Shown here: positions 7,292-43,909 of the stretch, piece by piece
Numbering within the stretch: position 1 is the first letter of the stretch
Layout of the letters: every line of letters starts with the position of its first letter
Source: Arachidicoccus rhizosphaerae
GTDB taxonomy: Bacteria > Bacteroidota > Bacteroidia > Chitinophagales > Chitinophagaceae
Direction: 5' to 3'
NCBI RefSeq assembly: GCF_900107765.1
Contig: NZ_FNQY01000031.1
Location: forward strand, 1-44,842
DNA length: 44,842 nt
The notes under the pieces: generated by a model
The model's database searches: none
Seen by the model: only the letters and a program-made list of their open reading frames with translations
Told to the model about the DNA's origin: nothing
Program-made: the position numbers and the translations under genes

Positions 7292-7366
7292 GGTCTCGTA
7301 GTTCAATGGATAGAATAGAAGTTTCCTAAACTTTAGATACAGGTTCGATCCCTGTCGAGACCACCA
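7292..7366 (+). tRNA. tRNA-Arg (anticodon CCT)
   Basis: Full cloverleaf: acceptor GGTCTCG (7292-7298) pairs with CGAGACC (7356-7362); anticodon stem GAAGT/ACTTT with loop TTCCTAA gives CCT; T arm ACAGG-TTCGATC-CCTGT; discriminator A and encoded CCA at 7364-7366. The phage integrase begins 117 bases after the 3' end, so this tRNA is the likely attachment site and its 3' part is probably phage-restored sequence. Confidence 0.93.
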
Positions 7367-7482: not shown

Positions 7483-8535
7483 ATGTCCTATTCAATATTA
7501 ATAGAGCTTGGCAAGGAAAACAAACAATTTGAACGCAAAGTGGTGATTCTTGTCATTATTGACGGCAAAAAATTACCGCGCATAGACACTGGTGTTAAAA
7601 TATCCGGTGACCTTAAAAAGGCAGATCCAAAAGCTTTAAACGTCATCAAAAAGAAACGTAATGAAGTAGAGCAGAAAATACTGCTATCCATTCAACTGAC
7701 GGGCAAACCCTCGCTTCCGTCTGCGAATATTGATACATTAATAGGCTTTTGGGAGGACAGGAAAAAAGATATTGCCAGGAGCGATAACAGGATTAGGGCT
7801 ATTGAAGTGGCTCTGGAGGCAATTGGAGATTGTAAACTGGCGGCAATAAATACCCGGGAACTAGAATCTATTGAAAAGAAGCTCAGAGAGCGCGAAAAAC
7901 CGCTATCTGAATCCACAATTTGGAGTTATATGTCCAGGTTAAAAGCAGTGCTCAATTTGGCTATTAGGGATCATATCTTGCAGGATCGACAAATAAGCGG
8001 CTATCGGTGGCCGGCATATTATTCTGATGTGCCTATTTTCCTGTTAGAACCCGAGATTGAAGCGTTCGCAAAAGCATTGAGTGGGATTGCTGACCCCAGC
8101 TTGCAGCAGGCCGGTTATCGGTTCCTGCTGGCCTGTTACGCCGGCTATCGGATCTCAGATGCAAAAAGGTTTAATCCGGACTTCATAAACGGTGATGCTC
8201 TAACCATCAGGGCGGCCAAAAATAAAAAAGTAGTCTCTATTGCCATTCATAACAATTTGCGCCCGGTGGTGGACTGGCTGCTTAAAAATCCTGAATGTAA
8301 TCTAACGGACCAGGCAATCAACAAGCTTATTAAGGATATCGCTAAGGCTGGCGGAATCAAAAAGCATATTAAATTCCATACAGGCAGGCACTCCTTTGCT
8401 ATGCTTTTAACCCGAAAAGGCTTCACAATTGAAGAGGTGGCTGAGTTCCTGGGTGACGATATTAGAGCCGCCAAAACGTATGCCCGCCTCTGGAATGACG
8501 AACTTAACCGAAAAGTTATTGAGAAACTGGGCTGA
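7483..8535 (+). CDS. int: Tyrosine-type site-specific integrase
   Basis: Integrates and excises the prophage at the tRNA-Arg site. 350 aa: an N-terminal arm-binding region (1-75), a SAM-like core-binding domain (about 80-170) and a catalytic domain (about 185-350). Catalytic residues visible are Arg223 (YAGYRISDAKR), His299 and Arg302 (HTGRHSF), and the nucleophile Tyr333 (KTYARLW). The second His/Trp position usually seen in LGH reads LGD here. The gene starts 117 bases after the tRNA and reads away from it. Its TGA stop forms the first bases of the 12-base repeat array that follows. Close to the phage-type Bacteroidota integrases with a short catalytic domain. Confidence 0.95.
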   Translation: MSYSILIELGKENKQFERKVVILVIIDGKKLPRIDTGVKISGDLKKADPKALNVIKKKRNEVEQKILLSIQLTGKPSLPSANIDTLIGFWEDRKKDIARSDNRIRAIEVALEAIGDCKLAAINTRELESIEKKLREREKPLSESTIWSYMSRLKAVLNLAIRDHILQDRQISGYRWPAYYSDVPIFLLEPEIEAFAKALSGIADPSLQQAGYRFLLACYAGYRISDAKRFNPDFINGDALTIRAAKNKKVVSIAIHNNLRPVVDWLLKNPECNLTDQAINKLIKDIAKAGGIKKHIKFHTGRHSFAMLLTRKGFTIEEVAEFLGDDIRAAKTYARLWNDELNRKVIEKLG

Positions 8536-8646
8536 TTCTTTCCGCGTTACCGGTACGTGATTCTTTCCGCGTTACCCCGGATCAGATTCTTTCTGCGACA
8601 CCCATCGCCTGATTCTTTCCGGTTGGGGTTCTGCTGATTCTTTCCG
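8533..8646 (+). repeat. Five-copy 12-base direct repeat array with 25-26 base period
   Basis: TGATTCTTTCCG or a close variant starts at 8533, 8558, 8584, 8610 and 8635 (steps 25, 26, 26, 25). Copy 3 reads AGATTCTTTCTG; the others are exact over at least TGATTCTTTCC. Copies 1 and 2 also share the following CGTTACC. The spacers differ. It begins on the integrase stop codon and ends before the XRE gene. It could be a protein-binding array or the relic end of an IS21-like element, whose ends carry multiple repeats. It is not CRISPR: repeats and spacers are too short and the spacers are partly alike. Confidence 0.85.
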
Positions 8647-8683
8647 CAGAGGGGGTTACGCCTTCCTTTCGCACTGGGCTGGC

Positions 8684-9302: not shown

Positions 9303-9752
9303 CTAAGAGGCCAAATTAGCTACCTTAAAATTATTTATTAACTCCTTGACTTCCAGTATCTGCGTCGCAGTTAGGCCCTTTATTTTTAATGTATAGGTCT
9401 TAGTTGCTCCGCTCTCTTCGGGATTATTTCCAAAATAAAAACCTCTTCTCTCTCCCGTCTTTCCTCCTAATTTAATATTACAAGCCCCGTATTCCTCTTT
9501 AATAAACTTGATTATATTTTCCCGTGAGACAGATACTTTTATTTTATTTGTGTATAAAAAATCATTTAACTCTCTGTCTACCTTATTCAATTCTTTGATA
9601 GTTATATAATCACCTTTTTGCCACTTATTAATAAACATCGGTAGGTATTTTCTCAATATAGGTTTACAGTTCATGTAGTTATAGCGCCTCCATTTATCCA
9701 GATCTTTAACCCTTCCAGTGTTTATTTCTATATGCGTTATATTCATCATCAT
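9303..9752 (-). CDS. Hypothetical protein, second gene of a control-region pair
   Basis: Not recognised. 149 aa, basic (many Lys/Arg), AT-rich codons. The sequence has a DLDKWRRYNYMN stretch, a central NKVDRELNDFLYTNKIKVSVSRE segment that could hold a helix-turn-helix, and a C-terminal TYTLKIKGLTATQILEVKE. Its ATG overlaps the stop of the upstream gene by one base (TAATG), so the two are co-translated from the promoter at 10132-10139. The position opposite the late operon suggests a role in DNA binding or lysis-lysogeny control; inferred only. Confidence 0.55.
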   Translation of the reverse strand: MMMNITHIEINTGRVKDLDKWRRYNYMNCKPILRKYLPMFINKWQKGDYITIKELNKVDRELNDFLYTNKIKVSVSRENIIKFIKEEYGACNIKLGGKTGERRGFYFGNNPEESGATKTYTLKIKGLTATQILEVKELINNFKVANLAS

Positions 9753-10096
9753 TATTTTTTATAAATTACAAAACATCTTACAACCTTATCTCCCAGTCTA
9801 ACGCTTTTCGGCGGCCTCACCATGTGAGTCTGGTTTAGCCCTCCAAATATGTACTTACTTACCAGATTCCTACTTACATTAAACTGGTCAGCAATCTCTG
9901 AGATCTCAGACACCGGTACAATTCTCATTTGCTCCCACTTCTCTAGTCTACTAGAAATAACTTCCATTACTTTCGTGGCTTCAATAGTGGTGCCATCTAT
10001 TAGCAGATTTACAATTTTATCGGCAACGTCTCCCACCTGTAATATGTTTAATTCAGGGAATGAGTGTTGCACTCGTTGATAAATTTCATTTCTCAT
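9752..10096 (-). CDS. Hypothetical protein with possible HTH, first gene of control-region pair
   Basis: Not recognised as a named family. 114 aa; residues of about 61-83 (VSEISEIADQFNVSRNLVSK) fit a helix-turn-helix pattern, with the turn at FNVS and a recognition helix SRNLVSKYI. The N-terminal half looks helical (VGDVADKIVNLLIDG). It is the leftward gene next to the large regulatory region. TTACAG motifs lie close to its promoter and again at the rightward late promoter, so it is a candidate repressor acting on both. Inference only. Confidence 0.55.
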   Translation of the reverse strand: MRNEIYQRVQHSFPELNILQVGDVADKIVNLLIDGTTIEATKVMEVISSRLEKWEQMRIVPVSEISEIADQFNVSRNLVSKYIFGGLNQTHMVRPPKSVRLGDKVVRCFVIYKK

Positions 10097-10131: not shown

Positions 10132-10139
10132 CAAAATTA
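10132..10139 (-). promoter_or_regulatory. Leftward promoter core for the control-region pair
   Basis: TAATTTTG on the minus strand matches TAnnTTTG. The core TAATTTTGTTGTATC here is identical to that at 12446-12460. Two overlapping-spaced CTGTAAT motifs (minus strand, 10137-10151) abut it. A 24-base DnaA-box element ends 37 bases upstream. Confidence 0.6.
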
Positions 10140-10176
10140 CAGACATTACAGCCGCTTAAAGTAAAAAGCGAAAAAA

Positions 10177-10200
10177 GTTATTCATTTAGTTATTCACAGT
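10177..10200 (-). repeat. 24-base DnaA-box element, copy 1
   Basis: Exact inverse of 12384-12407. It contains TTATTCACA (10190-10198), a perfect match to the DnaA box TTATnCACA, and a second TTATTCA (10178-10184) 12 bases away. Each copy lies 37-38 bases upstream of the same promoter core. Confidence 0.75.
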
Positions 10201-10660: not shown

Positions 10661-11089
10661 ATGGCAAAAAACGGAAACATACACCCAAAAAGGATATTTA
10701 GAAGCGTAAAATCCTTGCAAAAAGCATGGGAGGAATACAAGGAAGATCTCCACGACCAGGCTAACGAATGGTTAAGGATTCAGTATGTCGGTAAGGAAGG
10801 TAATCGAATGGAAGACCCTCAAAAAGTACCTTATACACTTGAAGGATTTAAGAGATATTGTAGGGAGCGGTACGGAGATGTTTCCGGGTATTTTGAGAAT
10901 CATAGTAATTATTACGATGACTTTGTAGGTATCTGCGCGCAAATACGTGAAGAAATCCGCGAAAATCAGATAATTGGAGGGCTTTTAGGGTTTTATAATC
11001 CTTCAATCACCCAGCGCCTTAACGGACTTGCAGATAAAACAGAGACAAAAGTTAATATAGAACAGCCATTATTTGGAGATGAAGAGTAA
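10661..11089 (+). CDS. terS: Terminase small subunit (gp3-like DNA-packaging protein)
   Basis: Recognises phage DNA for packaging and brings in the large subunit. 142 aa; matches the DNA-packaging gp3-like small terminases of Bacteroidota phages: an N-terminal helical part (FRSVKSLQKAWEEYKEDL), the conserved VPYTLEGFKRYCRERYGDV segment, helices with a CAQIREEIRENQIIGGLLGFYNPSI motif, and a C-terminal tail (NIEQPLFGDEE). Its stop overlaps the next start by one base (TAATG), so both terminase subunits are coupled. Confidence 0.85.
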   Translation: MAKNGNIHPKRIFRSVKSLQKAWEEYKEDLHDQANEWLRIQYVGKEGNRMEDPQKVPYTLEGFKRYCRERYGDVSGYFENHSNYYDDFVGICAQIREEIRENQIIGGLLGFYNPSITQRLNGLADKTETKVNIEQPLFGDEE

Positions 11090-12360
11090 TGACCGTAATT
11101 GCTAGGACCATACCGCCCAAATTAACCAAGGTTAATGGATTTACTTATACAACTGCTATAAGGAAGCTAAGGAGGCTTAAACGGCGTATTAAATGCGTTC
11201 CTGGTGGATCTTCAGCCGGTAAGACATTCGGCATCCTACCAATATTAATCGACAAAGCAGCCAGAACGCCCAAACTTGAAATTAGCGTAGTTTCTGAATC
11301 AATTCCACACCTTAGACGTGGCGCCTTAAAGGATTTTATAAAGATCATGCAGGCTACCGGTAGGTTTATTGATGCTAATTGGAACCGGACCTTACTAAAA
11401 TACACTTTCGGGAATGGGTCGTATATTGAATTTTTCAGCGTTGAAAACGAACAGAATGTAAGAGGCCCCAGGCGCAAAATTTTGTACGTCAATGAGGCTA
11501 ACAATATTTCTTTTGATACTTACCACCAGCTGGCAATTAGAACATCCGATGAGATCTGGCTTGACTGGAACCCGTCCAATGAGTTTTGGGCCTACACAGA
11601 GCTTTTAAATGATCCCGATGCAGATTGGCTTACACTCACCTACCAAGACAATGAAGCGTTACCGGATGCAATCGTTAAGGAGCTAGAAAAAGGGTATAAC
11701 AGGGCCTTTAAAGATCCGGAATTAGCAAAACGAGATTGGGAGGCCGGCATTAAGCCTGACAATATTAAATCCTCGTACTGGCTGAACTGGGTTAAGGTTT
11801 ATCTACGGGGCGAATTAGGCAGCCTGGAAGGCGTTATATTTAGTAATTGGGAGATCATCGACGAACTCCCAGCAGAGGCAAAGTACTTAGGCACCGGTTT
11901 GGATTTCGGCTATACCAACGATCCTACAGCGGCGCCAGATGTGTACAAGTGGAATGATTACAGAATAATCGATGAGGCTGTTTATCAGACCGGCCTAATG
12001 AATCATCAGATAGCTGAAAAGATCAAGGGTAAGGGCCCCGTTTATGCAGACAGTGCAGAGCCAAAAAGTATTGATGAAATTGCATTATTTGGCATTCCTA
12101 TCTTTCCAACGGTAAAGGGCAAAGATTCAATTAATTACGGCATTCAGTTAATGCAACAACAAAAATACCTTGTTACAAGGCGAAGCGTCAACGCAATTAA
12201 AGAACTTAGAAATTATTGCTGGGATACAGATAAGACCGGCAAGTCACTGAATAAGCCAATCGACGCGTTTAACCACATCATAGACGGCCTACGTTATCAC
12301 GAAATGATGACCTTAAGCCAGCCTGAGCCGTGGGATCTCTCCGATCTGTACGCCTTTTAA
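11089..12360 (+). CDS. terL: Terminase large subunit
   Basis: Packaging ATPase and nuclease that fills the prohead. 423 aa. The ATPase domain has a Walker A GGSSAGKT (residues 39-46) and a Walker B ILYVNEAN (131-138), where Glu136 is the catalytic acid. The RNase H-like nuclease domain begins with an Asp in GLDFGYTNDPTA, continues with YADSAEP, and ends with the Asp in DAFNHIIDGLRY. The length fits PBSX/Terminase_3-type enzymes. It follows the small subunit directly and is followed by a weak terminator and a new promoter. Confidence 0.95.
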   Translation: MTVIARTIPPKLTKVNGFTYTTAIRKLRRLKRRIKCVPGGSSAGKTFGILPILIDKAARTPKLEISVVSESIPHLRRGALKDFIKIMQATGRFIDANWNRTLLKYTFGNGSYIEFFSVENEQNVRGPRRKILYVNEANNISFDTYHQLAIRTSDEIWLDWNPSNEFWAYTELLNDPDADWLTLTYQDNEALPDAIVKELEKGYNRAFKDPELAKRDWEAGIKPDNIKSSYWLNWVKVYLRGELGSLEGVIFSNWEIIDELPAEAKYLGTGLDFGYTNDPTAAPDVYKWNDYRIIDEAVYQTGLMNHQIAEKIKGKGPVYADSAEPKSIDEIALFGIPIFPTVKGKDSINYGIQLMQQQKYLVTRRSVNAIKELRNYCWDTDKTGKSLNKPIDAFNHIIDGLRYHEMMTLSQPEPWDLSDLYAF

Positions 12361-12383: not shown

Positions 12384-12407
12384 ACTGTGAATAACTAAAT
12401 GAATAAC
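12384..12407 (+). repeat. 24-base DnaA-box element, copy 2
   Basis: Exact inverse of 10177-10200. TGTGAATAA (12386-12394) is the perfect DnaA box on the other strand; the second GAATAAC follows at 12401-12407. It lies 38 bases upstream of the -7 box at 12446. Confidence 0.75.
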
Positions 12408-12421
12408 TATTAAATGCAAAA

Positions 12422-12453
12422 TGTCCTCTAATGTCCACTTAAAGGTAATTTTG
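12422..12453 (+). promoter_or_regulatory. Promoter with TGTCC tandem motif, for the small-gene block
   Basis: TAATTTTG (12446-12453) matches TAnnTTTG. Two 10-base units TGTCCTCTAA (12422) and TGTCCACTTA (12432) occupy the place of the -33 element, suggesting an activator site. The first ATG is only 7 bases past the box, so the transcript would have almost no leader. Confidence 0.55.
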
Positions 12454-13491: not shown

Positions 13492-13560
13492 TAATAGTTA
13501 TTCAATAGTTATCCCCAATTTTATTAAAAATGTCCGCTCCTGTCCTCTAGTGTCCTCTAG
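13492..13560 (+). promoter_or_regulatory. Diverged DnaA-box element plus three tandem 10-base repeats
   Basis: TAATAGTTATTCA (13492-13504) and AGTTATCCCCA (13507-13517) resemble the 24-base element read in reverse; TTATCCCCA is one base from a DnaA box. Then TGTCCGCTCC, TGTCCTCTAG, TGTCCTCTAG run without gaps at 13531-13560. Upstream regulatory region of the portal gene. The 199-base gap 13424-13622 holds only this, the terminator and the promoter box. Confidence 0.55.
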
Positions 13561-13622: not shown

Positions 13623-15146
13623 ATGAACCAAGTAGAACGATTAAAAACCAATTTCCAGAAGTATGGAAAGTTTTATCCAACGGTGTTGGATAAGGTTAAA
13701 TCATTCTTACCTCATGAGAAATGGAAAGGCCCGGACGGTGCTACAACATACTGGAATACCGCCCTGTCAATTCCAAATATGGATAAAGAGCTCTTTGTCA
13801 ATAGTGGGTATCTCAAAAATGCGATGGTGTATTCAGTGGTCAATAAGATCGCCAAGACCGGTTCGCAGGCACCTTTGCAGCCTTACAAGGTTGTAAATGA
13901 AAAGGCGTACCAAAAGTATAAGTCTCTGACTCATGCCGGTATGGAGATGACCAAAGATGTCATGTTTTCAGCTTTACTGGAGCGCTCAAAAGCATTTGAG
14001 TTGCTACCTGAAAGCCATGAGCTGAGCAAGCTACTACAGAACCCTAACAGGCAGCAAGGGCAAACTGAGTTCATCAGAAATGCATTAGGCATGAAACTGA
14101 TCACCGGCGATGCCTTTATTTACGGGATCACCATTGGCCGCAAAAAGCGGGTGGGCGAACTGATTGTACTGCCTTCTCACATGATGACCATCATACCTGA
14201 AGAGGGCAAAATGATTCCAGGACCGCTTAGATATGAGTTCTCATACGGTGGGAATGTCTACAGGTTCAATCCGGATGAGATACTGCAATCTAAATACTGG
14301 AATCCCAAATGGGACGTATTAGGCAGCCAGCTGTACGGCCTCTCTCCTTTACACGCAGGTTGGCTGAGTGTTCAATCTGACAATGATGCAAGGTTAGCCG
14401 GCATTGAATTGCTCCAGAACAGAGGCCCCCGAGGCTTCGTTAGCTGGGAACTGCCACCGGTTGCCGGGAATACAGATCTCAAAGCAGTGACCAAGGAAGC
14501 CGCTGGCAGGATTAAAGAGGAATGGAGACAGCTGAGCAAAGAATATAAAGACCAGCTGGCAATCATTTTCGGTAAAGCTACCTGGATGCAGACAGGCCTC
14601 ACAAATACCGACATGGGAATACTGGACACGTCCAAGTTTACCCAGTCCGACCTCTGCAACCTGTACGGCGTATCCGAAAAGCTCTTTAACAACCCTGATG
14701 ATTCTAAGTTCAACAACCTGAAGGAATACAAAAAGGATTTTATATCCAACGTTGTTGCTCCTGAATTATTTGGACTTAGAGATGATCTGAACAGGAAACT
14801 AAAAACCGATTGGGGTTATAAAGATGAGAATGTTGTTATAGACTTTGACATATCAGTCTACAAAGAACTGGACGAGGATAAAAAAGAGTTAGCCGCCTGG
14901 ATGGATATAGCCGGCTGCTTTACAGAGAACGAAAAGCGGATTATCCTGGGCCAGGACGCCCTGGATTATGATCCGGAAGGCAAAAACCTGATGGATAAGG
15001 TTTACAAAAAGAACAGCTACCTACCAATTGAAAAACTCGGCCAGATTCAGCCGCAACCGGGGCAAAACGACGAGGAAAGCGATCATCAGGGCAATGACCC
15101 ACAAACGGGCAAAAAAGGCAAAAAGGAGGGGCAAAATAGCAAATGA
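13623..15146 (+). CDS. Portal protein (HK97-type)
   Basis: Forms the dodecameric ring at one capsid vertex through which DNA passes. 507 aa. Typical HK97-like portal features: N-terminal SIPNMDKELFVNSGYLKNAMVYSVVNKIA, the LPSHMMTIIPEEGKM wing region, PDEILQSKYWNP, GLSPLHAGWLSV before the crown helices, and a middle GDAFIYG segment. The C-terminal 40 residues are hydrophilic and disordered (QPQPGQNDEESD, KKGKKEGQ). It overlaps the protease start by four bases (ATGA). First gene of the head operon. Confidence 0.92.
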   Translation: MNQVERLKTNFQKYGKFYPTVLDKVKSFLPHEKWKGPDGATTYWNTALSIPNMDKELFVNSGYLKNAMVYSVVNKIAKTGSQAPLQPYKVVNEKAYQKYKSLTHAGMEMTKDVMFSALLERSKAFELLPESHELSKLLQNPNRQQGQTEFIRNALGMKLITGDAFIYGITIGRKKRVGELIVLPSHMMTIIPEEGKMIPGPLRYEFSYGGNVYRFNPDEILQSKYWNPKWDVLGSQLYGLSPLHAGWLSVQSDNDARLAGIELLQNRGPRGFVSWELPPVAGNTDLKAVTKEAAGRIKEEWRQLSKEYKDQLAIIFGKATWMQTGLTNTDMGILDTSKFTQSDLCNLYGVSEKLFNNPDDSKFNNLKEYKKDFISNVVAPELFGLRDDLNRKLKTDWGYKDENVVIDFDISVYKELDEDKKELAAWMDIAGCFTENEKRIILGQDALDYDPEGKNLMDKVYKKNSYLPIEKLGQIQPQPGQNDEESDHQGNDPQTGKKGKKEGQNSK

Positions 15147-15835
15147 GCCAGTTAATACAGACTCAGCTTAATAAGCTGGAGGAAAAACGCAAAAGTATCA
15201 AGTCCGCTCCGGTGGACATGGACGACAAAGGCAACCGTGTCGTTGTTTACTACGCTCATTTCGGCAATGTTGACCGGGTAAAGGACATCATGACTCTGGG
15301 CGCCGCTACTGAAGATCTCAAAGCCCGCGGCCCCAAAGGTGAGGATGTAATCTGGCACACCGACAACCATAATTATGACAGGCCGGTCACCAAGCCGACC
15401 GAATTAATTGAGGATGAGAAAGGATTGAGGGGCGTGTTAACGATCTGGCCGAACACTGTTGTGGGCCGTGACGTCTACGAGCTGTATAAATCCGGCCTCA
15501 TCACGCATCATTCCCTGGGTTATTACGAGCTTGAAAATGCAGAAAGGAACGGAGCTAATGAAATCCTAAAGATCTACATCACGCACGTATCAAACGTGAT
15601 GGACCCGGCCAATTTCCTTGCCAGGACACAGGAAGTAAGCCTGAAAGGCATGGACATCGAAGAGGGAACGGAGCTAAACGCCCGGTTAAAGCAATTCATC
15701 AGAGACACAATTGCGAGCGATGAAACCATCATCAAGGCGATGGAAGCCCAAAAAAACATAGAAAAAGCGCTGGAAAGGGAGAAATCCGTTAAAAGTCTGG
15801 CGTCCTTAATACGTAACACAAATTTAAAACTGTAA
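15143..15835 (+). CDS. Prohead protease (HK97 type, S78)
   Basis: Serine protease that matures the prohead by removing scaffold regions of the capsid protein. 230 aa. A catalytic His in IWHTDNHN (His72 or His76) and the Ser in HHSLGYY (Ser124) fit the His-Ser-His arrangement of U35/S78 proteases; a His in ITHVSNV follows. The C-terminal tail (from about 175) is helical and charged and may act as scaffold. It sits between portal and capsid as usual and overlaps portal by four bases. Confidence 0.9.
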   Translation: MSQLIQTQLNKLEEKRKSIKSAPVDMDDKGNRVVVYYAHFGNVDRVKDIMTLGAATEDLKARGPKGEDVIWHTDNHNYDRPVTKPTELIEDEKGLRGVLTIWPNTVVGRDVYELYKSGLITHHSLGYYELENAERNGANEILKIYITHVSNVMDPANFLARTQEVSLKGMDIEEGTELNARLKQFIRDTIASDETIIKAMEAQKNIEKALEREKSVKSLASLIRNTNLKL

Positions 15836-15838
15836 AAA

Positions 15839-17137
15839 ATGGCAGAAGAAACTATGAGCACTGCGGAGGTTACAGAGGCGCTAAAAGACCTGAGAACGGA
15901 CCTCTCTAAGCAGATCACAGAACGTACAAAAGCCGTAGAAAACGGCGCCACCAAAGAGGAACTGAAGGCCTATGATGAGCGCATCAAGGTACTGGAGTCC
16001 GTTGGTGAAGAGCTGAAAGAAGCTAAAGAGGAAATCAGAGCCTTACAGCTGGAAGCCAGAGAGAAATCCGCCGAGAAAGAAAAAGGGCTGACCCTTCGCG
16101 GTCAGATCATGAAGGCATTAACCACCGGTGAAGAGGAAATTAAATCAATTGCTAACGCCAAATCCGGACGTGTGGAATTGAAAAAAGCCGCTTCCATTAT
16201 TACCACCGGCAACGTAGGTACTGGTGTAATCCTGGGCATGAGAGAATCCGGCATCAATGCCGCTCCTTTCCGTCAGCGTTTCATCACTGACCTTATCCGT
16301 ACCCAAAACGGCGGTGTAGGCTCCGACCCATTAACGTGGGTTGAAAAGAAACCAAAGGAAGGCGGACCTGCAAGCGTATCCGAAAGCAACACCAAGCCTA
16401 ACATGGACTGGACTTACAACGAAGGTAAGACCACTGCTGAAACCTTAGCGGTTTATGCAGCTATTACCCGTCAGCAAGCCCGCAATATGCAGGTGCTGGG
16501 AGAAACTGTTGCAGAGGAACTGATCCCTAATCTCTACGACGAGATGGATTACCAGGTCCTTTTAGGTGACGGTGCAGCCAATGCCGCGGGTATTGGCAAT
16601 AACCTGAAAGGTATTGTCCAGTACTGTCAAGCCTTCACAGGTGCAGGCCTTGCCGGAAAGGTACAGGCAGCTAATCAAATGGACGTACTACGTGCAGCTA
16701 TTTTACAGGCCCGTGTCGGCAACAAGGCCGCTACTGGTTACGGCCGTCGTACAGGTTACATCCCTAACGCAATCTTAGTAAGCCCTACAGTTAACGCGCT
16801 GCTGGATACTTACAAGAACGCTAACGACACCTATATCTTACCTCCTTTCACAACTGCTGACGGGTCTAAGATCAAAGGTATCAGGGTTATTGAGAACGAC
16901 TTCGTAGCAGATGATCAGTTCATTGTCGGAGACTTCTCTAAGGGTTTATTAAACTTCGTAGAGGGGCTGAGCTTGCAAGTTGGCTGGGTTAACGATCAGA
17001 TGATCAAAAACCAGTTAACCGTACTGGCTGAGCTGGTAGCGTCTTTCCGTATCAAATACCATGACCAATGGGCTTTTGTAAAAGGAACCTTCGCTACAGC
17101 TACACCTCTTATCCAGAAGGCAGAGGCAGAAGCATAA
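15839..17137 (+). CDS. Major capsid protein (HK97 fold)
   Basis: Builds the icosahedral shell. 432 aa: residues of about 1-105 form a charged coiled-coil delta/scaffold region rich in Glu, Lys and Ala that the neighbouring protease should remove; the HK97-fold shell domain follows (GVILGMRESGINAAPFRQRF, WVEKKPKEGG, ARNMQVLGETVAEELIPNLYDEMDYQVLLGDG, NAILVSPTVNALLD, FVADDQFIVGDFSKG). Codon use looks more even than the neighbours, as expected of a highly expressed gene. A stem-loop follows 28 bases after the stop. Confidence 0.95.
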   Translation: MAEETMSTAEVTEALKDLRTDLSKQITERTKAVENGATKEELKAYDERIKVLESVGEELKEAKEEIRALQLEAREKSAEKEKGLTLRGQIMKALTTGEEEIKSIANAKSGRVELKKAASIITTGNVGTGVILGMRESGINAAPFRQRFITDLIRTQNGGVGSDPLTWVEKKPKEGGPASVSESNTKPNMDWTYNEGKTTAETLAVYAAITRQQARNMQVLGETVAEELIPNLYDEMDYQVLLGDGAANAAGIGNNLKGIVQYCQAFTGAGLAGKVQAANQMDVLRAAILQARVGNKAATGYGRRTGYIPNAILVSPTVNALLDTYKNANDTYILPPFTTADGSKIKGIRVIENDFVADDQFIVGDFSKGLLNFVEGLSLQVGWVNDQMIKNQLTVLAELVASFRIKYHDQWAFVKGTFATATPLIQKAEAEA

Positions 17138-38182: not shown

Positions 38183-38773
38183 TTACGCTATCAGCCGTTC
38201 TTTAATTTGAGTAATTACTTCCGTAGTTCTTTCATCCCCTGCGCTGAGCAGTCTCTTGGCGGTATTTCTGTTGTGGATAACAGAGGTATGATCCATCCCG
38301 AACATCTGAGCCAGCGCAACAAAAGTTGTGCTCTGGTATTTCCACGCCAGGTAAAAGATAGCTCGGCGGATCTCCACGATCGTACCTTTTCTGGTTCTCG
38401 CCCGGATCTTGTCAAAAGACATCCCCGTCACTTCCTCAGCTGCACGAATGATGTCATCAATGCTTACCTGCTGAGGCTGGTACATGATTCTCTTGCTGGC
38501 CTCGTCGGCGGCGGCAACCTCTTTACGAGCGCTCTGGCAGCTCTCCCATCCAGGCAGCAGATAGACCCCGCTGCACTTGTTGAAAAAGGGGATAAGGAAA
38601 CGGGATTCTTCCTCCGCACTGTTAAGACCTTCCTCATCCACCTCATTAAACTTCAGAATTTCTTCCAGCGGGTTGATGGCCACCCACCCCATTTTCCGGA
38701 TCTGCATCTCAGCTTCTGAGAACACGTTCCTTGGCGTGCCTTTACGCTTACCGATGATGTATATTAGTTCCAT
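38183..38773 (-). CDS. DUF4406 - DnaA domain IV fusion protein
   Basis: 196 aa. Residues 1-98 resemble DUF4406 (deoxyribosyltransferase-like fold): IYIIGKRKGTP at the start and LPGWESCQSARKEVAAADEA. Residues 104-193 are DnaA domain IV, the origin-box-binding domain, with the signature FGMDHTSVIHN (158-168; bacterial DnaA has DHTTV) after RRAIFYLAWKYQSTTFVALA. The DnaA AAA+ ATPase is absent. The protein could bind DnaA boxes without opening an origin. Perfect DnaA boxes occur in the phage control region (10190, 12386), and one lies inside this gene (38272-38280). Confidence 0.8.
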   Translation of the reverse strand: MELIYIIGKRKGTPRNVFSEAEMQIRKMGWVAINPLEEILKFNEVDEEGLNSAEEESRFLIPFFNKCSGVYLLPGWESCQSARKEVAAADEASKRIMYQPQQVSIDDIIRAAEEVTGMSFDKIRARTRKGTIVEIRRAIFYLAWKYQSTTFVALAQMFGMDHTSVIHNRNTAKRLLSAGDERTTEVITQIKERLIA

Positions 38774-38787
38774 GGTTTACCTCCTGA

Positions 38788-39240
38788 TTATTTAGTGAGT
38801 ACAGGTGCAATCAGCGCCTTGAACTCTTCCAGTGAACGAATAATGATGTAATTATGTCCCCTCTCCTGCACTTTGGCCTGCCACTCTTTTTGCGCTGCCT
38901 CCTGCGAGCCAGTGGGCGTTTTGAGTTCGATAAACAGAATGCGACCCTGTGGCAGCACTAGCACCAGGTCAGACACCCCCTTTACCACGCCCATGGCTTT
39001 AAACTTGTTACCCTCAATTGCGTTGCGGGCTTTATTATTCACATGAAACAGCATTCCTCTATGTTCCGGATAGGTGTTCCAGAACCACTGTGTAATGTCG
39101 GCTTGGAGACGGGATTCTGTTTGCTCGTTGCCAATCAGATTACTGGCCGGGGAGAACTGTCCGCTGGCTGTGGGCTTCGGCCCCTTATTTGAGTTTGGAA
39201 CTGGCCACCATGCAGTTGAGGGATTATTGATAGTATTCAT
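38788..39240 (-). CDS. VRR-NUC domain nuclease
   Basis: 150 aa. PD-(D/E)xK nuclease of the VRR-NUC family: GVVKGVSDLVLVLPQGRI with Asp91, then FIELKTPTGSQ with Glu105 and Lys107, and a helix ending QKEWQAKV. An N-terminal helix (LQADITQWFWNTYPEHR) and HVNNKA precede. Such stand-alone enzymes cut branched or structured DNA in phage replication or recombination. The start overlaps the end of the primase gene by 17 bases. Confidence 0.88.
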   Translation of the reverse strand: MNTINNPSTAWWPVPNSNKGPKPTASGQFSPASNLIGNEQTESRLQADITQWFWNTYPEHRGMLFHVNNKARNAIEGNKFKAMGVVKGVSDLVLVLPQGRILFIELKTPTGSQEAAQKEWQAKVQERGHNYIIIRSLEEFKALIAPVLTK

Positions 39241-41488
39241 TTCTGCTATTATTATCTGGGTTAAAAAATATTTGTTGCTGTACGGGCTGTTTGGGCTTCG
39301 CCGGTTCGTAGGGAGGGAAAGGGGGCGGTTCGGTGGATGTTGTTGAACTTAGTATTGAGATTTCCTGTACCATCCAGACGCGCTGAGCGGCCCCTGCTTT
39401 CCATACTACACGCTGTTCAAATCCTAGTCGCTTTAACTCCATACCGATTCGTTTAACAGTGAGCCTAGTAACCCCAAACCTTCCTCTTATTTTTGATTCA
39501 ATCTCGCTTGCTGGCATTTCTACTGGCCCGTTCTCAAACATGAGTTGTATTAGCTCCCTTTCATTCGAAACCGCTTCAAATTGGGCGATATGTTTATTTA
39601 GGTATGCTTTATCCTCCTTGCTGAGTACTTTCCAGTCAAAACCGGATTTCCACAGGTGATACGCTTCCATAAATACATCTGTCTTATCTACATCATTGAA
39701 TATATTGTGATTAATTCCTGTTAATAGAATTGGTATCTTACGCCTGTTTCCTGTTGGGTCATCAATAACGTCGTCCTCATTTGAAGAGCCACACAAAACG
39801 GCTAAGCGTCGTAAATCCCTATGCACCATGCCGTATGGTTCACGGATGCTAAATATCCTCTGACTTGTTAATGTCTTAAACCTCTTACTATCCTTTTTAC
39901 TTTTACCGCCCATTTCATCATCCAGGATAATTAACTTTTTAGTCATTAGGATTTCACCGTCCTTAGCTTCATCCAAATTGCTTTGCGCAAAATAGCTGGT
40001 AAGCCCTTCAGGTAATAAGTGGTTAAACCAATATGTTTTTCCTGTTCCGTGCTCGCCACCCACTAATATTAAATCCAGGTCGCTAGGCTGGTCAAATATT
40101 GCCGATATGATAGACACGATCCACTTTGTACCGAAGTATTGCAGGTATTCCGGGTCCGGTGTCTCAATACTGCTGAGTAGTTTTTTTATATGGCCGCCGT
40201 CTTTGCCTCTTTCAATATTCTGAGTAACGAACTCTTTAAATGGGTTGTAATCGGCAACAAAATCAGACCCTATTAAACGCTTCAAAGTATCAAAACTGGT
40301 CTTGCCAAGTACTTTGTTTGCTTTAATCCAAATGCTATTCAACTCCTTTTCCTCAATCTTGAAACCGCCATCCTCCACCATCCTGGTGATCTCATTGCGC
40401 CTCAGGTCATAATTCTGCCTCAGCCACAATTCCAGTTGCTCAATAGGCCCGTCCTCATTCAGCTGGATATTGTTATCCATAACGGATTGTGCAATCTGCT
40501 GTACATCGTCTCCCTGGATGCCTTCAAACTGTGCCAGGTTCTTAGCTACCTGCTGGGCGTTTAATCCGCCTTTCTTACCCTGGGATGCTGAGTAAGCAAT
40601 TGTCTTTGTCCTTTGGCTGTAGACCTCAATTCCTGCCTGTTTGCAGTAGTAGTAAAAAGTGGCGATCGTTGCTTTTCTGCCTGCACCGTGCGCTTTTAAA
40701 CAGTTGTCATACTGCTTTTCACAGGTCCTTTCATTGAACTTGTAACTATACTGGCTCACATGGCGGAAATAGTTGCGGCCACCCTCGCCGAACTGATCAG
40801 CGAAAGCAAAGCCTATCCGGAGCCATTCTTCGTATCCGTCACACAGGCTTATGCCTCTGCGGTCGATCTCCTTTAAAATCTCCTCAAAATCGTTATGAGC
40901 ATAGATGACTTTGTCCAGCTTCTTAGGTTCCCGGGTTTTAGGGTACTTAGTCCATTTGAGGGCCGTTTCATTGCGGAATAGCGCCGGGTCAAAGGAGACG
41001 AAGCGGAGGCGGCTTACATCGCTGCCACTGGCATCCACGATAACGTTGTACGTGTTGTACATATAATCGCTGATACCCATAAAACTCTCCTTGTGCTTGC
41101 CGGGTGTTATCTTGAACAGCAGACAGAGGCCACGGCCGGAAATAGAGGCAAAGGAGGCATAAACGTGCGGATCTTTCTCAACCATGGCACGGACGGCGTT
41201 CAGCTCGCCCGGACCTTCCAGCCCGTCAATGTCAATAGCTATAAATCCGCTGTGCTTTACCAGAGCATTTGAAGCCCGGCGTTCAAACTGCCCGGATATA
41301 GTAACCGCCGGCGCTGTTCTCTTTTTCAGGTCTGCCCGCTGCTCTTTCGTGGGAAGCACTCTGATGGGCGACACAATATCCTGCCAGTAGCCGTCCTGCA
41401 CCTTATCCAGGAACATATCCAGAGGAATGGTCTCTTTTTCTGCCACTTCTTTTGCCAGTGAGTAAATTGATATATTTGGGGTCTGCAT
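39224..41488 (-). CDS. Primase-helicase (BT4734/BF3469 primase-like with VirE helicase domain)
   Basis: 754 aa. Residues of about 30-185 form the BT4734/BF3469-type primase-polymerase-like domain with catalytic IDID (Asp86, Asp88) and SGRGLCLLFKI. A PriCT-like helical domain follows (about 200-290). The C-terminal VapE/VirE-like SF3 helicase has Walker A GEHGTGKT (478-485), Walker B LIILDDEM, and CGSSNEDDVIDDPTGNRR with the sensor and arginine parts. It would prime and unwind phage DNA. Start MQTPNIS at 41488. Likely core of the replication module. Confidence 0.9.
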   Translation of the reverse strand: MQTPNISIYSLAKEVAEKETIPLDMFLDKVQDGYWQDIVSPIRVLPTKEQRADLKKRTAPAVTISGQFERRASNALVKHSGFIAIDIDGLEGPGELNAVRAMVEKDPHVYASFASISGRGLCLLFKITPGKHKESFMGISDYMYNTYNVIVDASGSDVSRLRFVSFDPALFRNETALKWTKYPKTREPKKLDKVIYAHNDFEEILKEIDRRGISLCDGYEEWLRIGFAFADQFGEGGRNYFRHVSQYSYKFNERTCEKQYDNCLKAHGAGRKATIATFYYYCKQAGIEVYSQRTKTIAYSASQGKKGGLNAQQVAKNLAQFEGIQGDDVQQIAQSVMDNNIQLNEDGPIEQLELWLRQNYDLRRNEITRMVEDGGFKIEEKELNSIWIKANKVLGKTSFDTLKRLIGSDFVADYNPFKEFVTQNIERGKDGGHIKKLLSSIETPDPEYLQYFGTKWIVSIISAIFDQPSDLDLILVGGEHGTGKTYWFNHLLPEGLTSYFAQSNLDEAKDGEILMTKKLIILDDEMGGKSKKDSKRFKTLTSQRIFSIREPYGMVHRDLRRLAVLCGSSNEDDVIDDPTGNRRKIPILLTGINHNIFNDVDKTDVFMEAYHLWKSGFDWKVLSKEDKAYLNKHIAQFEAVSNERELIQLMFENGPVEMPASEIESKIRGRFGVTRLTVKRIGMELKRLGFEQRVVWKAGAAQRVWMVQEISILSSTTSTEPPPFPPYEPAKPKQPVQQQIFFNPDNNSRNEYYQ

Positions 41489-41545: not shown

Positions 41546-43204
41546 TTAAAGTGCTCTCAGTGCCTGTAACGGCTGGATACTTGGCTGCCATGGCTGCGGC
41601 TTGGCAGGCTCAGGCAGGATAACGGGCGGCGGTGGTGGCGGAGCTGGCAAAGGAGCTGTAAATGCTTGCACCTCCTGCCCTTCCGGCTTCCACTTTTTAA
41701 AACGGTCTTGCAATTCCTTCCACAGCGTTTCTTTTGCCCGGTCCTGATGCCAGCGGTTCCAGTTCTTGCCTACCTGTTCGCACCAAACCTTGCCTTTCTC
41801 TTCGTACTGGCTGAGGATATACGCTGCAATTTCCTCGGTCATTTTAGGTACGGTCTGCTTAGCAGCAGCGGCCAGCTGGCGGCCAATGTCAAAGAAGGTG
41901 TAATATTCCTTACGCTCGCTGTTTTCCTGCATGAGGGTTTCAATATCCAGTCCTTTTGTGACCACTACAAAATCCCCTAGCTCCTCTTCAATCTCCTGTT
42001 CTCTGCTTGGAAATTCGAAGCCACAGTATTTGCAGCTCCTGGCAGTGGCTGCTAGGATTGCGTCACAGCTGGGGCATGACTTGCAAGGGGCAGCGCCCTG
42101 TTTGTCCTTTTTCTTAGGCGGATTATGAAAGATATTCTCCCAATCCCTATCATCTGACCAGTCACCTAAAACGGCTGCATTGCCGCCCATGTCAATAATG
42201 GTAAAGATTGCTTTGCTGGCGTGTAACCGACCGCCCCTGCCTGTGCACTGTAACCAGGTGATATTACTTTTCGTGGAACGGTTCATTATTACCGTCTGAA
42301 TGCTTGGAATATCCGTCCCGGTGGTGGCAATACCAACATTGTTCAGGATCGCTCCGGGTGTACTCTCAAACCATTTCAGGATATTGGTGCGCTCGGTGGT
42401 GCTCATATCGCCGTCAACATGTTTGGCTTCATAACCTGCCAGCCTGAAAGCGTTGTTAACCTGTATGGAATGATCTACGGTACAATTAAATACGATCGCT
42501 TTCGTACCCGGTGCGTACTTTTCGTAAGCCTTAACGGTATTGTTAACGTACTTTGGAGCGCTGAACTTGATACCCATTAAGCCCTCGTCAAAATCACCGC
42601 CTTTCGTGGCCAGCTCCGCCCTGTTTACGGTTTCTTCCGGTGCCCTGGTGATGTTCTGGCAGAGCTTGCCTCTGCGGATCAACTCCTCAATCTGGACAGT
42701 TGTGATGATATCCTGATAATAATCCTTTAAAGGCTTTTTCTTGTTGGCACTATACGGAGTTGCAGTAAAGCCTAAAATATACGGAGGATTGGGCAGCGCT
42801 TCCAGTGGCTTATGAACTTTAAAAAAATTTGCAAGGTGCGCCTCGTCTATTATAACCAATCCCAGGCTAGTGGGAATCTTATCTACTTTTTTGTATGTGC
42901 TCTCGATCATGCCTACATAAACCTGTGCGGGCGGTATGTGCTTCATACCTGAGATGATCGGCTGAGCCTTAATTTTATACAGGTCGTATAAAGTCCTGCG
43001 TGTCTGTCTCAGCAACTCGATACGATGTACTAATATTAAAATGCTGGATGTGTTCTTGGTTAGCCACCGATTGCAGACAGAGGAAAACATAACGGTCTTG
43101 CCTGAGCCGGTTGGGGCCTGAGCTAACAGTTTTTTGATGCCGGACGCAAACTTTGTAGCGGCCTCGTTATTCAGTTTCTCTTGATAATCGTAAAGTGTAA
43201 TCAT
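41546..43204 (-). CDS. SF2 (DEAD/DEAH-type) helicase with zinc ribbon
   Basis: 552 aa from the ATG at 43204 (MITLYDYQEKLNNEAATKFA); the frame extends 23 codons upstream but that part looks non-coding. Motif I APTGSGKT (30-37), motif II IDEAH, motif III GFTATPY, motif VI QCTGRGGRL. A C4 zinc ribbon (CPSC ... CKYCGFEF) follows, then a Pro-rich C-terminus. Similar to restriction-type III/UvrB-like phage helicases; probably unwinds DNA in replication or recombination. Confidence 0.9.
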   Translation of the reverse strand: MITLYDYQEKLNNEAATKFASGIKKLLAQAPTGSGKTVMFSSVCNRWLTKNTSSILILVHRIELLRQTRRTLYDLYKIKAQPIISGMKHIPPAQVYVGMIESTYKKVDKIPTSLGLVIIDEAHLANFFKVHKPLEALPNPPYILGFTATPYSANKKKPLKDYYQDIITTVQIEELIRRGKLCQNITRAPEETVNRAELATKGGDFDEGLMGIKFSAPKYVNNTVKAYEKYAPGTKAIVFNCTVDHSIQVNNAFRLAGYEAKHVDGDMSTTERTNILKWFESTPGAILNNVGIATTGTDIPSIQTVIMNRSTKSNITWLQCTGRGGRLHASKAIFTIIDMGGNAAVLGDWSDDRDWENIFHNPPKKKDKQGAAPCKSCPSCDAILAATARSCKYCGFEFPSREQEIEEELGDFVVVTKGLDIETLMQENSERKEYYTFFDIGRQLAAAAKQTVPKMTEEIAAYILSQYEEKGKVWCEQVGKNWNRWHQDRAKETLWKELQDRFKKWKPEGQEVQAFTAPLPAPPPPPPVILPEPAKPQPWQPSIQPLQALRAL

Positions 43205-43324
43205 TTCTAAACTCCTTTTCTTTATTCTCTGTGCTATGCGTTTGTTGTGCGCTGTGTCGTGTGGTGTTTTCAAAAAGTGCCGCTTTTAACCAGAGCGGCT
43301 AACTGGGTTACCAACTCGTTTAGG

Positions 43325-43909
43325 CTAGAACGGGAGATCATCATTTACTGCTGGCGCCGCTGGCCCGTAACCTGGGGCCGCCGGTCCCGTGGCCAGGCTT
43401 CCCTGAGGCGCATAACCTTGCGGGGCGTACTGAGCCGCGGGGGCTGCCTGAGTTGCCGGGCTAAACCCTCCTGGCGCCGGTGCTGCCTGCGCTGGCTGCT
43501 GTGGGTAATACTGCTGTGCGGCCTGTGGATTCTGGGGGGCTGCATAACCTTGTGGGGCTGCCTGTACTGGCGGCTGACCAAAGGGAGTTGTTGCAACTGG
43601 GGCAGACTGGGGAGCGTACTGCTGTGTCGGTGTATTCTGTTTCATATTGCCGATGTAGGTCCGCTTAATCTGCTGCTCTCTTTCTTCCTTGGATTGGCCG
43701 ATACTGATACTGGCAGAGTTGCCGTACTGGTCTACCTGGTCATTAATCCAGAGGTTAACGGGCACGTAGTGCTTGCCGTTTTTCTGGCCGGTTACGAACG
43801 GGTGAGGGAGCGCAGACAGGTTTATCCATGCGCTGCCGTCCTGACCACGTTGAATTAAGTTTCCGAATACATCTTCAAGGCAGATGCTACCATATAAGAA
43901 TTGTGACAT
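43325..43909 (-). CDS. SSB-like protein with DDLPF tip
   Basis: 194 aa. N-terminal about 85 residues are beta-rich (FLYGSICLEDVFGNLIQRGQ; GKHYVPVNLWINDQVDQYGN), then a long low-complexity Gln/Pro/Ala/Gly/Tyr linker (about 100-185), and the C-terminus NDDLPF, very like the bacterial SSB tip DDDIPF that recruits replication proteins. The N-terminal domain does not show a clear classical OB-fold, so it may be a divergent one. Its place among helicase and primase genes supports a single-strand-binding role. Confidence 0.7.
   Translation of the reverse strand: MSQFLYGSICLEDVFGNLIQRGQDGSAWINLSALPHPFVTGQKNGKHYVPVNLWINDQVDQYGNSASISIGQSKEEREQQIKRTYIGNMKQNTPTQQYAPQSAPVATTPFGQPPVQAAPQGYAAPQNPQAAQQYYPQQPAQAAPAPGGFSPATQAAPAAQYAPQGYAPQGSLATGPAAPGYGPAAPAVNDDLPF

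Follow-up and report, generated by a model that had tools for sequence, protein, structure and literature searches.

The window, that is, the whole stretch of 44,842 nucleotides analysed in this study, is contig C21 of a 4.87-Mb genome and holds a prophage. A tRNA-Arg gene (7292-7366) and the integrase gene (7483-8535) are followed by PHROG-assigned genes for the small and large terminase subunits (10661-12360) and for the portal, protease and major head proteins (13623-17137). Directly behind the integrase gene (8531-8647), a 15-nt direct repeat (GCTGATTCTTTCCGC and variants) is present in five copies spaced 25-26 nt apart; these are perhaps arm sites. The early genes of the prophage run leftward from its right end. 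The minus strand encodes a protein ending in DDLPF (43325..43909; SSB-like tail by eye, no Pfam match, phrog_24909 of unknown function), a ResIII/DEAD helicase in the same operon direction (41546..43273, profile matches), a VapE-like primase-helicase with BT4734-like N-terminal, PriCT_2 and VapE-like profile matches (39224..41488) and a VRR_NUC nuclease (38788..39240, Pfam), which lies 14 bases upstream of the gene studied here (38183..38773). The latter is placed in the replication operon, behind the helicase, the VapE-like primase-helicase and the VRR_NUC nuclease. Its ORF is intact, with an ATG start and AGGAGG shortly 5' of the ATG, and encodes a protein of 196 aa in which a DUF4406/nucleoside 2-deoxyribosyltransferase (NDT)-like domain is fused to a DnaA domain IV.

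A preliminary description of this DNA had named the same two domains and had called for a domain search and a structure prediction; both were run and bear the naming out. PF14359 (DUF4406) covers residues 4-98 (38480..38764, minus strand) with 34.7 bits against a curated Pfam cut-off of 22, and PF08299 (Bac_DnaA_C, domain IV) covers residues 105-169 (38267..38461, minus strand) with 41.5 bits against a cut-off of 31.5; the signature FGMDHTSVIHN corresponds to residues 158-168. No AAA+ family matched the protein in the Pfam search, and the full-length DnaA model NCBIfam TIGR00362 reached 41.7 bits against a cut-off of 343.9, with its C-terminal end only. The AlphaFold2 model (20 aligned rows) has a mean pLDDT of 93.1 and a pTM of 0.66. 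Its C-terminal part has the domain IV fold, whose absence the description had named as grounds for refutation, and matches 3pvp_B (E 9e-5, rmsd 1.4, TM 0.87 over the target) and 1j1v_A (rmsd 1.6, TM 0.88); 3pvp and 1j1v are crystal structures of DnaA domain IV bound to DnaA-box DNA. The N-terminal part has the NDT/nucleotide N-glycosidase fold and matches 6evs_A with a probability of 1.00, TM 0.55 and rmsd 3.0, but with an E of 0.15. BcmB, MilB and DNPH1 also match this part, with probabilities of 0.5-0.99; 4jen_A has 0.99 and 8rpt_B 0.96. Chance or mis-annotation was rejected, because two independent curated cut-offs are passed, the model is confident and the same fusion occurs elsewhere. The earlier statement that the ATPase had been replaced is misleading, since stand-alone domain IV proteins are common in phages; one search found them at 11 other loci and another returned many entries. 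Therefore, the fusion looks like two phage modules joined, and the idea of a DnaA that lost its ATPase was rejected.

The frequency survey that had also been proposed was carried out, and the domain pairing recurs. DUF4406 was searched in overlapping sets of genomes that share the order (298 genomes), class (395) or phylum (395) of the window's genome; this revealed a second fusion in genome G450 (locus L066), a protein of 199 aa with 83.9 bits for DUF4406 and 26.8 bits, below the cut-off, for domain IV. The L066 protein as query retrieved 20 IMG/VR loci with full-length fusions (16 distinct proteins) in the same domain order. Porphyromonas phages phage005a and phage005b share one fusion, annotated as hypothetical (XAW31783.1), with 58.3 bits for DUF4406 and 28.1 bits, again below the cut-off, for domain IV. 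A two-domain pattern run against 84,980 species genomes gave one match, the true fusion L139 (78.0 and 53.6 bits, both cut-offs passed), in a MAG labelled Selenomonadales that may be misbinned. Its viral relatives are L146, which differs in three residues, and L147 (84.4 and 55.3 bits). The phage005 protein and the 20 IMG/VR loci share with the window protein the two domains, their order, a length of about 200 aa and mostly a place in a replication module; unlike it, they have intact enzyme residues and an altered recognition helix. The window protein is 19-26% identical to 10 other aligned fusions, and BLASTP aligned its residues 4-167 with the phage005 protein and its residues 4-128 with the G450 protein. 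A fusion of the L096 type, with a domain IV score that misses the Pfam cut-off, was modelled with a pLDDT of 85.1 and shows the same two folds (3pvp_A, TM 0.83; the NDT 8qc0_A, probability 1.00, E 0.06). Close relatives were limited to the window's own prophage copy in IMG/VR; none was confirmed in genome contigs and none was found in plasmid records. Trees were built for each domain (23 and 31 rows), and the best ones set the window protein apart from the other fusions; branches are long and one clade of all fusions was not rejected (AU p 0.13 and 0.264). The fusion is thus a true and recurrent one without a published description that we could find: a literature search, thin for subscription journals and preprints, returned none, and the main text of the Porphyromonas phage paper (PMC10367356) mentions neither DnaA nor DUF4406 nor deoxyribosyltransferase. 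A 238-aa viral protein (L089, 5704-6420) with about 100 unassigned N-terminal residues and a DnaA domain IV (57.5 bits) was considered as a possible further fusion; its N-terminus matches no DUF4406 profile.

The two domains also occur as separate neighbours. We surveyed the surroundings (up to 19 kb) of 30 further PF14359 matches in genomes (10 + 16 + 4), 15 of them scoring at least 44 bits and 15 at most 34.2, two of the latter below the Pfam cut-off. One is fused (L066). At five others (L038, L040, L041, L067, L068) a same-strand, stand-alone domain IV gene is found 0.8-1.5 kb upstream, and at a sixth split locus, L039, the domain IV gene lies 7.1 kb from DUF4406. These six domain IV genes pass the Pfam cut-off (35.0-50.0 bits). 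No domain IV gene was seen at the remaining 23, eight of which belong to the group with at least 44 bits; this number is an upper bound for such loci, as the profile missed the domain IV of L066. L038, L040 and L041 resemble Mu-type prophages; in them the domain IV gene lies between an AAA ATPase gene and a Gam/DUF3164 gene, with DUF4406 downstream: Mu Gam was found in L041, DUF3164 in L038 and L040 and AAA ATPases in all three, and a transposase-like ORF stayed below the cut-off in L038 and had no match in L040. At the level of genomes, two draws of 395 class genomes each were taken as the same, and the 23 genomes with at least two PF08299 matches were read by eye. A second PF08299 match was present in 5 of 8 genomes with a strong DUF4406 match, a limit set afterwards between 34.2 and 35.9 bits, and in 18 of 387 others; with the window's own genome excluded it was 4 of 7 (p 2e-4), and for any DUF4406 match, again excluding this genome, 5 of 16 versus 17 of 378 (p 0.001). 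The second match of G450 is its fusion protein, those of G406 and G537 are each an additional DnaA-like copy or fragment, and that of G529 lies on a different contig from DUF4406.

Residues of domain IV were numbered by alignment against the E. coli DnaA record. The window protein is identical to E. coli at R399, R407, D433, H434, T435 and H439 and carries the substitutions R432 to M, T436 to S, L438 to I, P423 to V and K415 to W. In the base-contact set (E. coli 399, 423, 432-435 and 438-439), positions 399, 433, 434, 435 and 439 are identical and 423, 432 and 438 are changed; contact positions are listed in PMC5043019, and R399A and T435M DnaA are reported as defective in box binding in PMC5742627. 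In comparison with DnaA, the window protein shares the domain IV fold (1j1v, 3pvp; TM 0.86-0.88 over the target), the DHT signature and the minor-groove Arg; it is without domains I-III and the AAA+ region, is changed at positions 432, 436 and 415 and has DUF4406 fused on. From these residues, the DNA reader of the window copy appears largely preserved. In nine rows of the L066 and phage005 types, R399, R407 and D433 are conserved, but position 434 is Q, T, E or I and position 435 is Ser; L139 and L147 keep D-H.

For the enzyme-like domain, we compared 23 DUF4406 sequences, 12 fused and 11 separate. The reference residues are Y24, D80 and E104 of DNPH1, its Y/D/E triad (PMC10603095), and S97 and G99 (phosphate) with E103 of MilB (PMC4081090). 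The spacing of Ser, Gly and Glu equals MilB numbering exactly, and the Asp was placed by motif spacing rather than superposition. The Glu that matches the nucleophile is present in all 23 sequences, the Tyr in 22 (Phe in G180), the phosphate Ser in 22, with the Cys of the window protein as sole exception, and the phosphate Gly in 21 (the window protein has Ser here and L115 has Lys). The catalytic-Asp position holds Asp in 14, Leu in the window protein and Cys, Asn or Ala in 8, so that a missing Asp does not by itself set the window copy apart. Of the NDT/nucleotide N-glycosidase residue set (Tyr, Asp, phosphate Ser and Gly, nucleophile Glu), the window protein thus keeps only Y5 and E85 and has L60 in place of the catalytic Asp, C79 in place of the phosphate Ser and S81 in place of the phosphate Gly. 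Each of the 10 other aligned fusions conserves Tyr, Asp, Ser and Glu, and 9 of them also Gly. Compared with DUF4406/NDT proteins, DNPH1/RCL and MilB, the window protein is the same in fold, Tyr and nucleophile Glu and differs at the catalytic-Asp, phosphate-Ser and Gly positions and in its added DNA-binding domain. Because the Asp, Ser and Gly positions are changed in it and largely kept in its sisters, the window copy looks like a worn enzyme and the sister fusions look intact, a loss of the pocket that is judged on sequence positions and not on a ligand-bound structure. The proposal that DnaA-box occupancy is linked to nucleotide state is thereby weakened in its enzymatic version for the window copy; ligand sensing by this copy, or enzyme action in the other fusions with their largely intact residues, might still provide such a link.

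Perfect DnaA boxes (TTATNCACA) occur six times in the window against 1.88 expected, a number reached in 2 of 100 shuffles; from the genome density (238 in 4867 kb) 1.8 would be expected in the prophage (Poisson p about 0.01). The host itself has an excess (238 in the whole genome versus 146 for the reversed control), and the looser TTWTNCACA is not above chance in the window (6 versus 4.95 expected; 37 of 100 shuffles reach 6). Close clusters of perfect boxes, among the places listed, lie in the host at G000:C16:42741-42787 and G000:C9:14640-15069, which are possible host control regions. The preliminary description had placed perfect DnaA boxes in the phage control region. This holds for one of the six, at 10190 in the intergenic control region; another, at 12386, is intergenic behind the terminase gene and four are inside ORFs. 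One of these four, a TTATCCACA (38272..38280, minus strand, motif search), is inside the fusion gene's own coding sequence, at the codons for SVIHN, and may be dictated by the protein sequence. No DnaA-box enrichment was found in the analysed stretches of other fusion or split loci (16 loci, 0 or 1 box each), and a comparison of eight other loci showed no clear shared operator in the spacer that precedes the fusion gene.

Two of the six perfect boxes lie in an exact 25-nt repeat, each copy of which is a tandem of TTATTCATT and TTATTCACA with 12-nt spacing. Site A (AGTTATTCATTTAGTTATTCACAGT; 10176..10200, plus strand; repeat and pattern search) is in the intergenic control region, and site B, the exact second copy (12384..12408, minus strand; repeat search), is intergenic behind the gene for the terminase large subunit. 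A related tandem element, site C (AGTTATTCAATAGTTATCCCCA, halves TTATTCAAT and TTATCCCCA; 13496..13517, plus strand; pattern search), precedes the portal gene. Only the DnaA box was fixed beforehand; the tandem patterns were drawn up once the sites were known. The pattern AGTTATNC-N3-6-AGTTATNC has three matches in the whole genome, namely sites A-C, and its reversed control has none. A looser pair pattern occurs once each in L123, L135 (host) and L142. With the standard consensus and at least 14 of 16 matches, sites A and B are the only tandem near-boxes in the window; two such pairs in the prophage compare with a shuffle mean of 0.19 (0 of 150 shuffles reach 2), but at 13 of 16 the enrichment is not significant (5 pairs against a shuffle mean of 2.68, with 5 reached in 18 of 150 shuffles). 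All three sites are fully outside genes, and the intergenic fraction of the prophage is 8.6% (own list of 44 ORFs). A TGTCCNCTNN repeat lies 13 nt from site B, with 2 units before a small gene (12422..12439, plus strand; repeat search), and 13 nt from site C, with 3 units before the portal gene (13531..13558, plus strand; repeat search), and the two-unit pattern is confined, within the host genome, to this prophage. TAnnTTTG, which we take to be the Bacteroidota -7 element, is present at 10139 (minus strand), 12446 and 13609 (both plus strand); an intergenic TAnnTTTG is found within 110 nt of all three sites, compared with 27% of intergenic positions drawn at random. Around sites A-C, sigma-70-type promoters show no enrichment (6 found, 11.0 expected). 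Among viral contigs, the composite of tandem site and repeat was found in two, the window's own and L154, the latter possibly by chance. The earlier suggestion that the protein regulates phage promoters thus gains some support from sites that are intergenic, confined to the prophage within the genome and within about 100 nt of a TAnnTTTG.

Tentatively, and with somewhat less than even confidence, we favour a DNA-binding regulator of the phage replication module that acts at tandem DnaA-box-like operators and uses the enzyme fold as a dimer or sensing part. The protein, composed of two phage modules, an N-terminal NDT/nucleotide N-glycosidase fold and a C-terminal DnaA domain IV, would be made when the early replication operon is expressed. 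Domain IV would read DnaA-box-like DNA, the likeliest targets being the phage's own candidate sites A-C near promoter-like motifs. The fusion protein would then most likely switch phage transcription, possibly replication, when the early operon is on; transcription is the most likely target because the sites stand between genes near promoter-like motifs. The enzyme fold would pair subunits and may sense a small molecule: since the pocket has lost key residues, the N-terminal domain is most likely a dimerisation and possibly a ligand-sensing part. DNA binding, the identity of the protein that binds the sites, dimerisation and regulation by the fusion protein are what we infer here, and the changes R432 to M and K415 to W in the window copy and the modest box excess speak against the regulator reading, as do the host's own box excess, the low box counts of other fusion or split loci, the after-the-fact framing of the tandem patterns and the absence of sigma-70-type enrichment. 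The place of the gene in the replication operon, and of most other fusions next to initiator or helicase-loader genes, speaks for it.

The fusion protein might instead bind an origin, marking it for the phage and bringing in the VapE-like primase-helicase, with sites B and C as origin rather than operators. This is unlikely in our view, although the gene lies in the replication operon and, by eye, sites B and C have a layout of tandem boxes, AT-rich stretch and TGTCC repeats. Other fusions and one stand-alone domain IV gene also adjoin replication genes, initiators or loaders. The survey of neighbours that had been suggested covered 24 other fusion loci, many of them near-copy contigs, so that the counts are not independent: 21 are beside an initiator or loader gene and 18 have a homologue of the window VRR_NUC downstream of the fusion gene (three of the other six have short downstream sequence). 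In 20 of the 24, an initiator-like gene (DUF6291 or Lin1244 type query) ends 0.6-1.0 kb upstream; at one more, only a helicase loader is present; L146 and L147 lack both, and L115 is too short to judge. An initiator-like gene already present in 20 of 24 loci argues against a second origin binder, as do the distance of about 25 kb between the sites and the fusion gene and the position of the sites beside promoter-like motifs.

We consider it improbable that the protein is a DNA-tethered nucleotide enzyme, with (deoxy)nucleotide cleavage by DUF4406 close to the replisome and domain IV as a mere anchor. The fold matches to NDT and CMP N-glycosidases would suit such an enzyme, and so would the Tyr, Asp, Ser and Glu of the 10 other fused rows, the residues of the DNPH1 triad and MilB (PMC10603095 and PMC4081090). 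However, the window copy has Asp changed to Leu, Ser to Cys as the sole exception in 23 sequences, and Gly to Ser, and a literature search at the level of titles found no paper on DUF4406 function.

Alternatively, host DnaA or another phage regulator could bind sites A-C, and the fusion protein would bind elsewhere or be dispensable. The box consensus is DnaA's own, host DnaA keeps R432 and K415, which the fusion does not, and two small ORFs without PHROG match adjoin site A (9303-10096). Against this, the elements occur nowhere else in the host genome and are thus phage-specific, and a domain IV is encoded by the phage itself; we regard this possibility as doubtful, on a par with the tethered enzyme. 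Very improbable is a decoy or competitor that occupies host DnaA boxes and blocks or re-times host replication: recognition residues near those of host DnaA and a missing AAA+ domain, which could allow binding without opening the DNA, would fit, but L066- and phage005-type fusions have altered recognition residues, and the decoy on host origins that was proposed earlier finds no specific support, and phage-specific candidate sites exist.

To our knowledge, no role has been established for phage domain IV proteins without an ATPase, and a literature search showed none for them. Stand-alone phage DnaA C-terminal proteins such as Gundel1_36 of Tenacibaculum phage Gundel_1 share with the window fusion a domain IV within a phage replication module, but are without the enzyme-like domain. 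Here such a domain IV is attached to an enzyme fold, and the genome that encodes it contains short tandem candidate sites specific to the phage. The role of a bare DnaA reader in a phage thereby becomes a directly testable question, for which two short DNA probes and one protein would be needed. NrtR and BirA are enzyme-fold sensors joined to HTH domains. They follow the same general plan of an enzyme-like fold plus a DNA reader; their folds and HTH types differ from those of the window protein and no homology is claimed. It is tempting, if a long shot, to speculate about a recurrent group of phage regulators in which a nucleotide N-glycosidase fold, with enzymatic activity in some members and a sensor role in others, is guided by domain IV to tandem DnaA-box operators that are specific to the phage, so that expression or replication would follow nucleotide state and an initiation signal. 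A full-length DnaA-like protein of 458 aa (L035, 4267-5643) was also seen in a 6,973-base record named Bacteriophage sp., which may be bacterial DNA. The fusion is, in addition, a functional hint for DUF4406. This domain also occurs at the C-terminus of a 267-aa protein (L142, 9282-10085), behind about 157 residues of something else.
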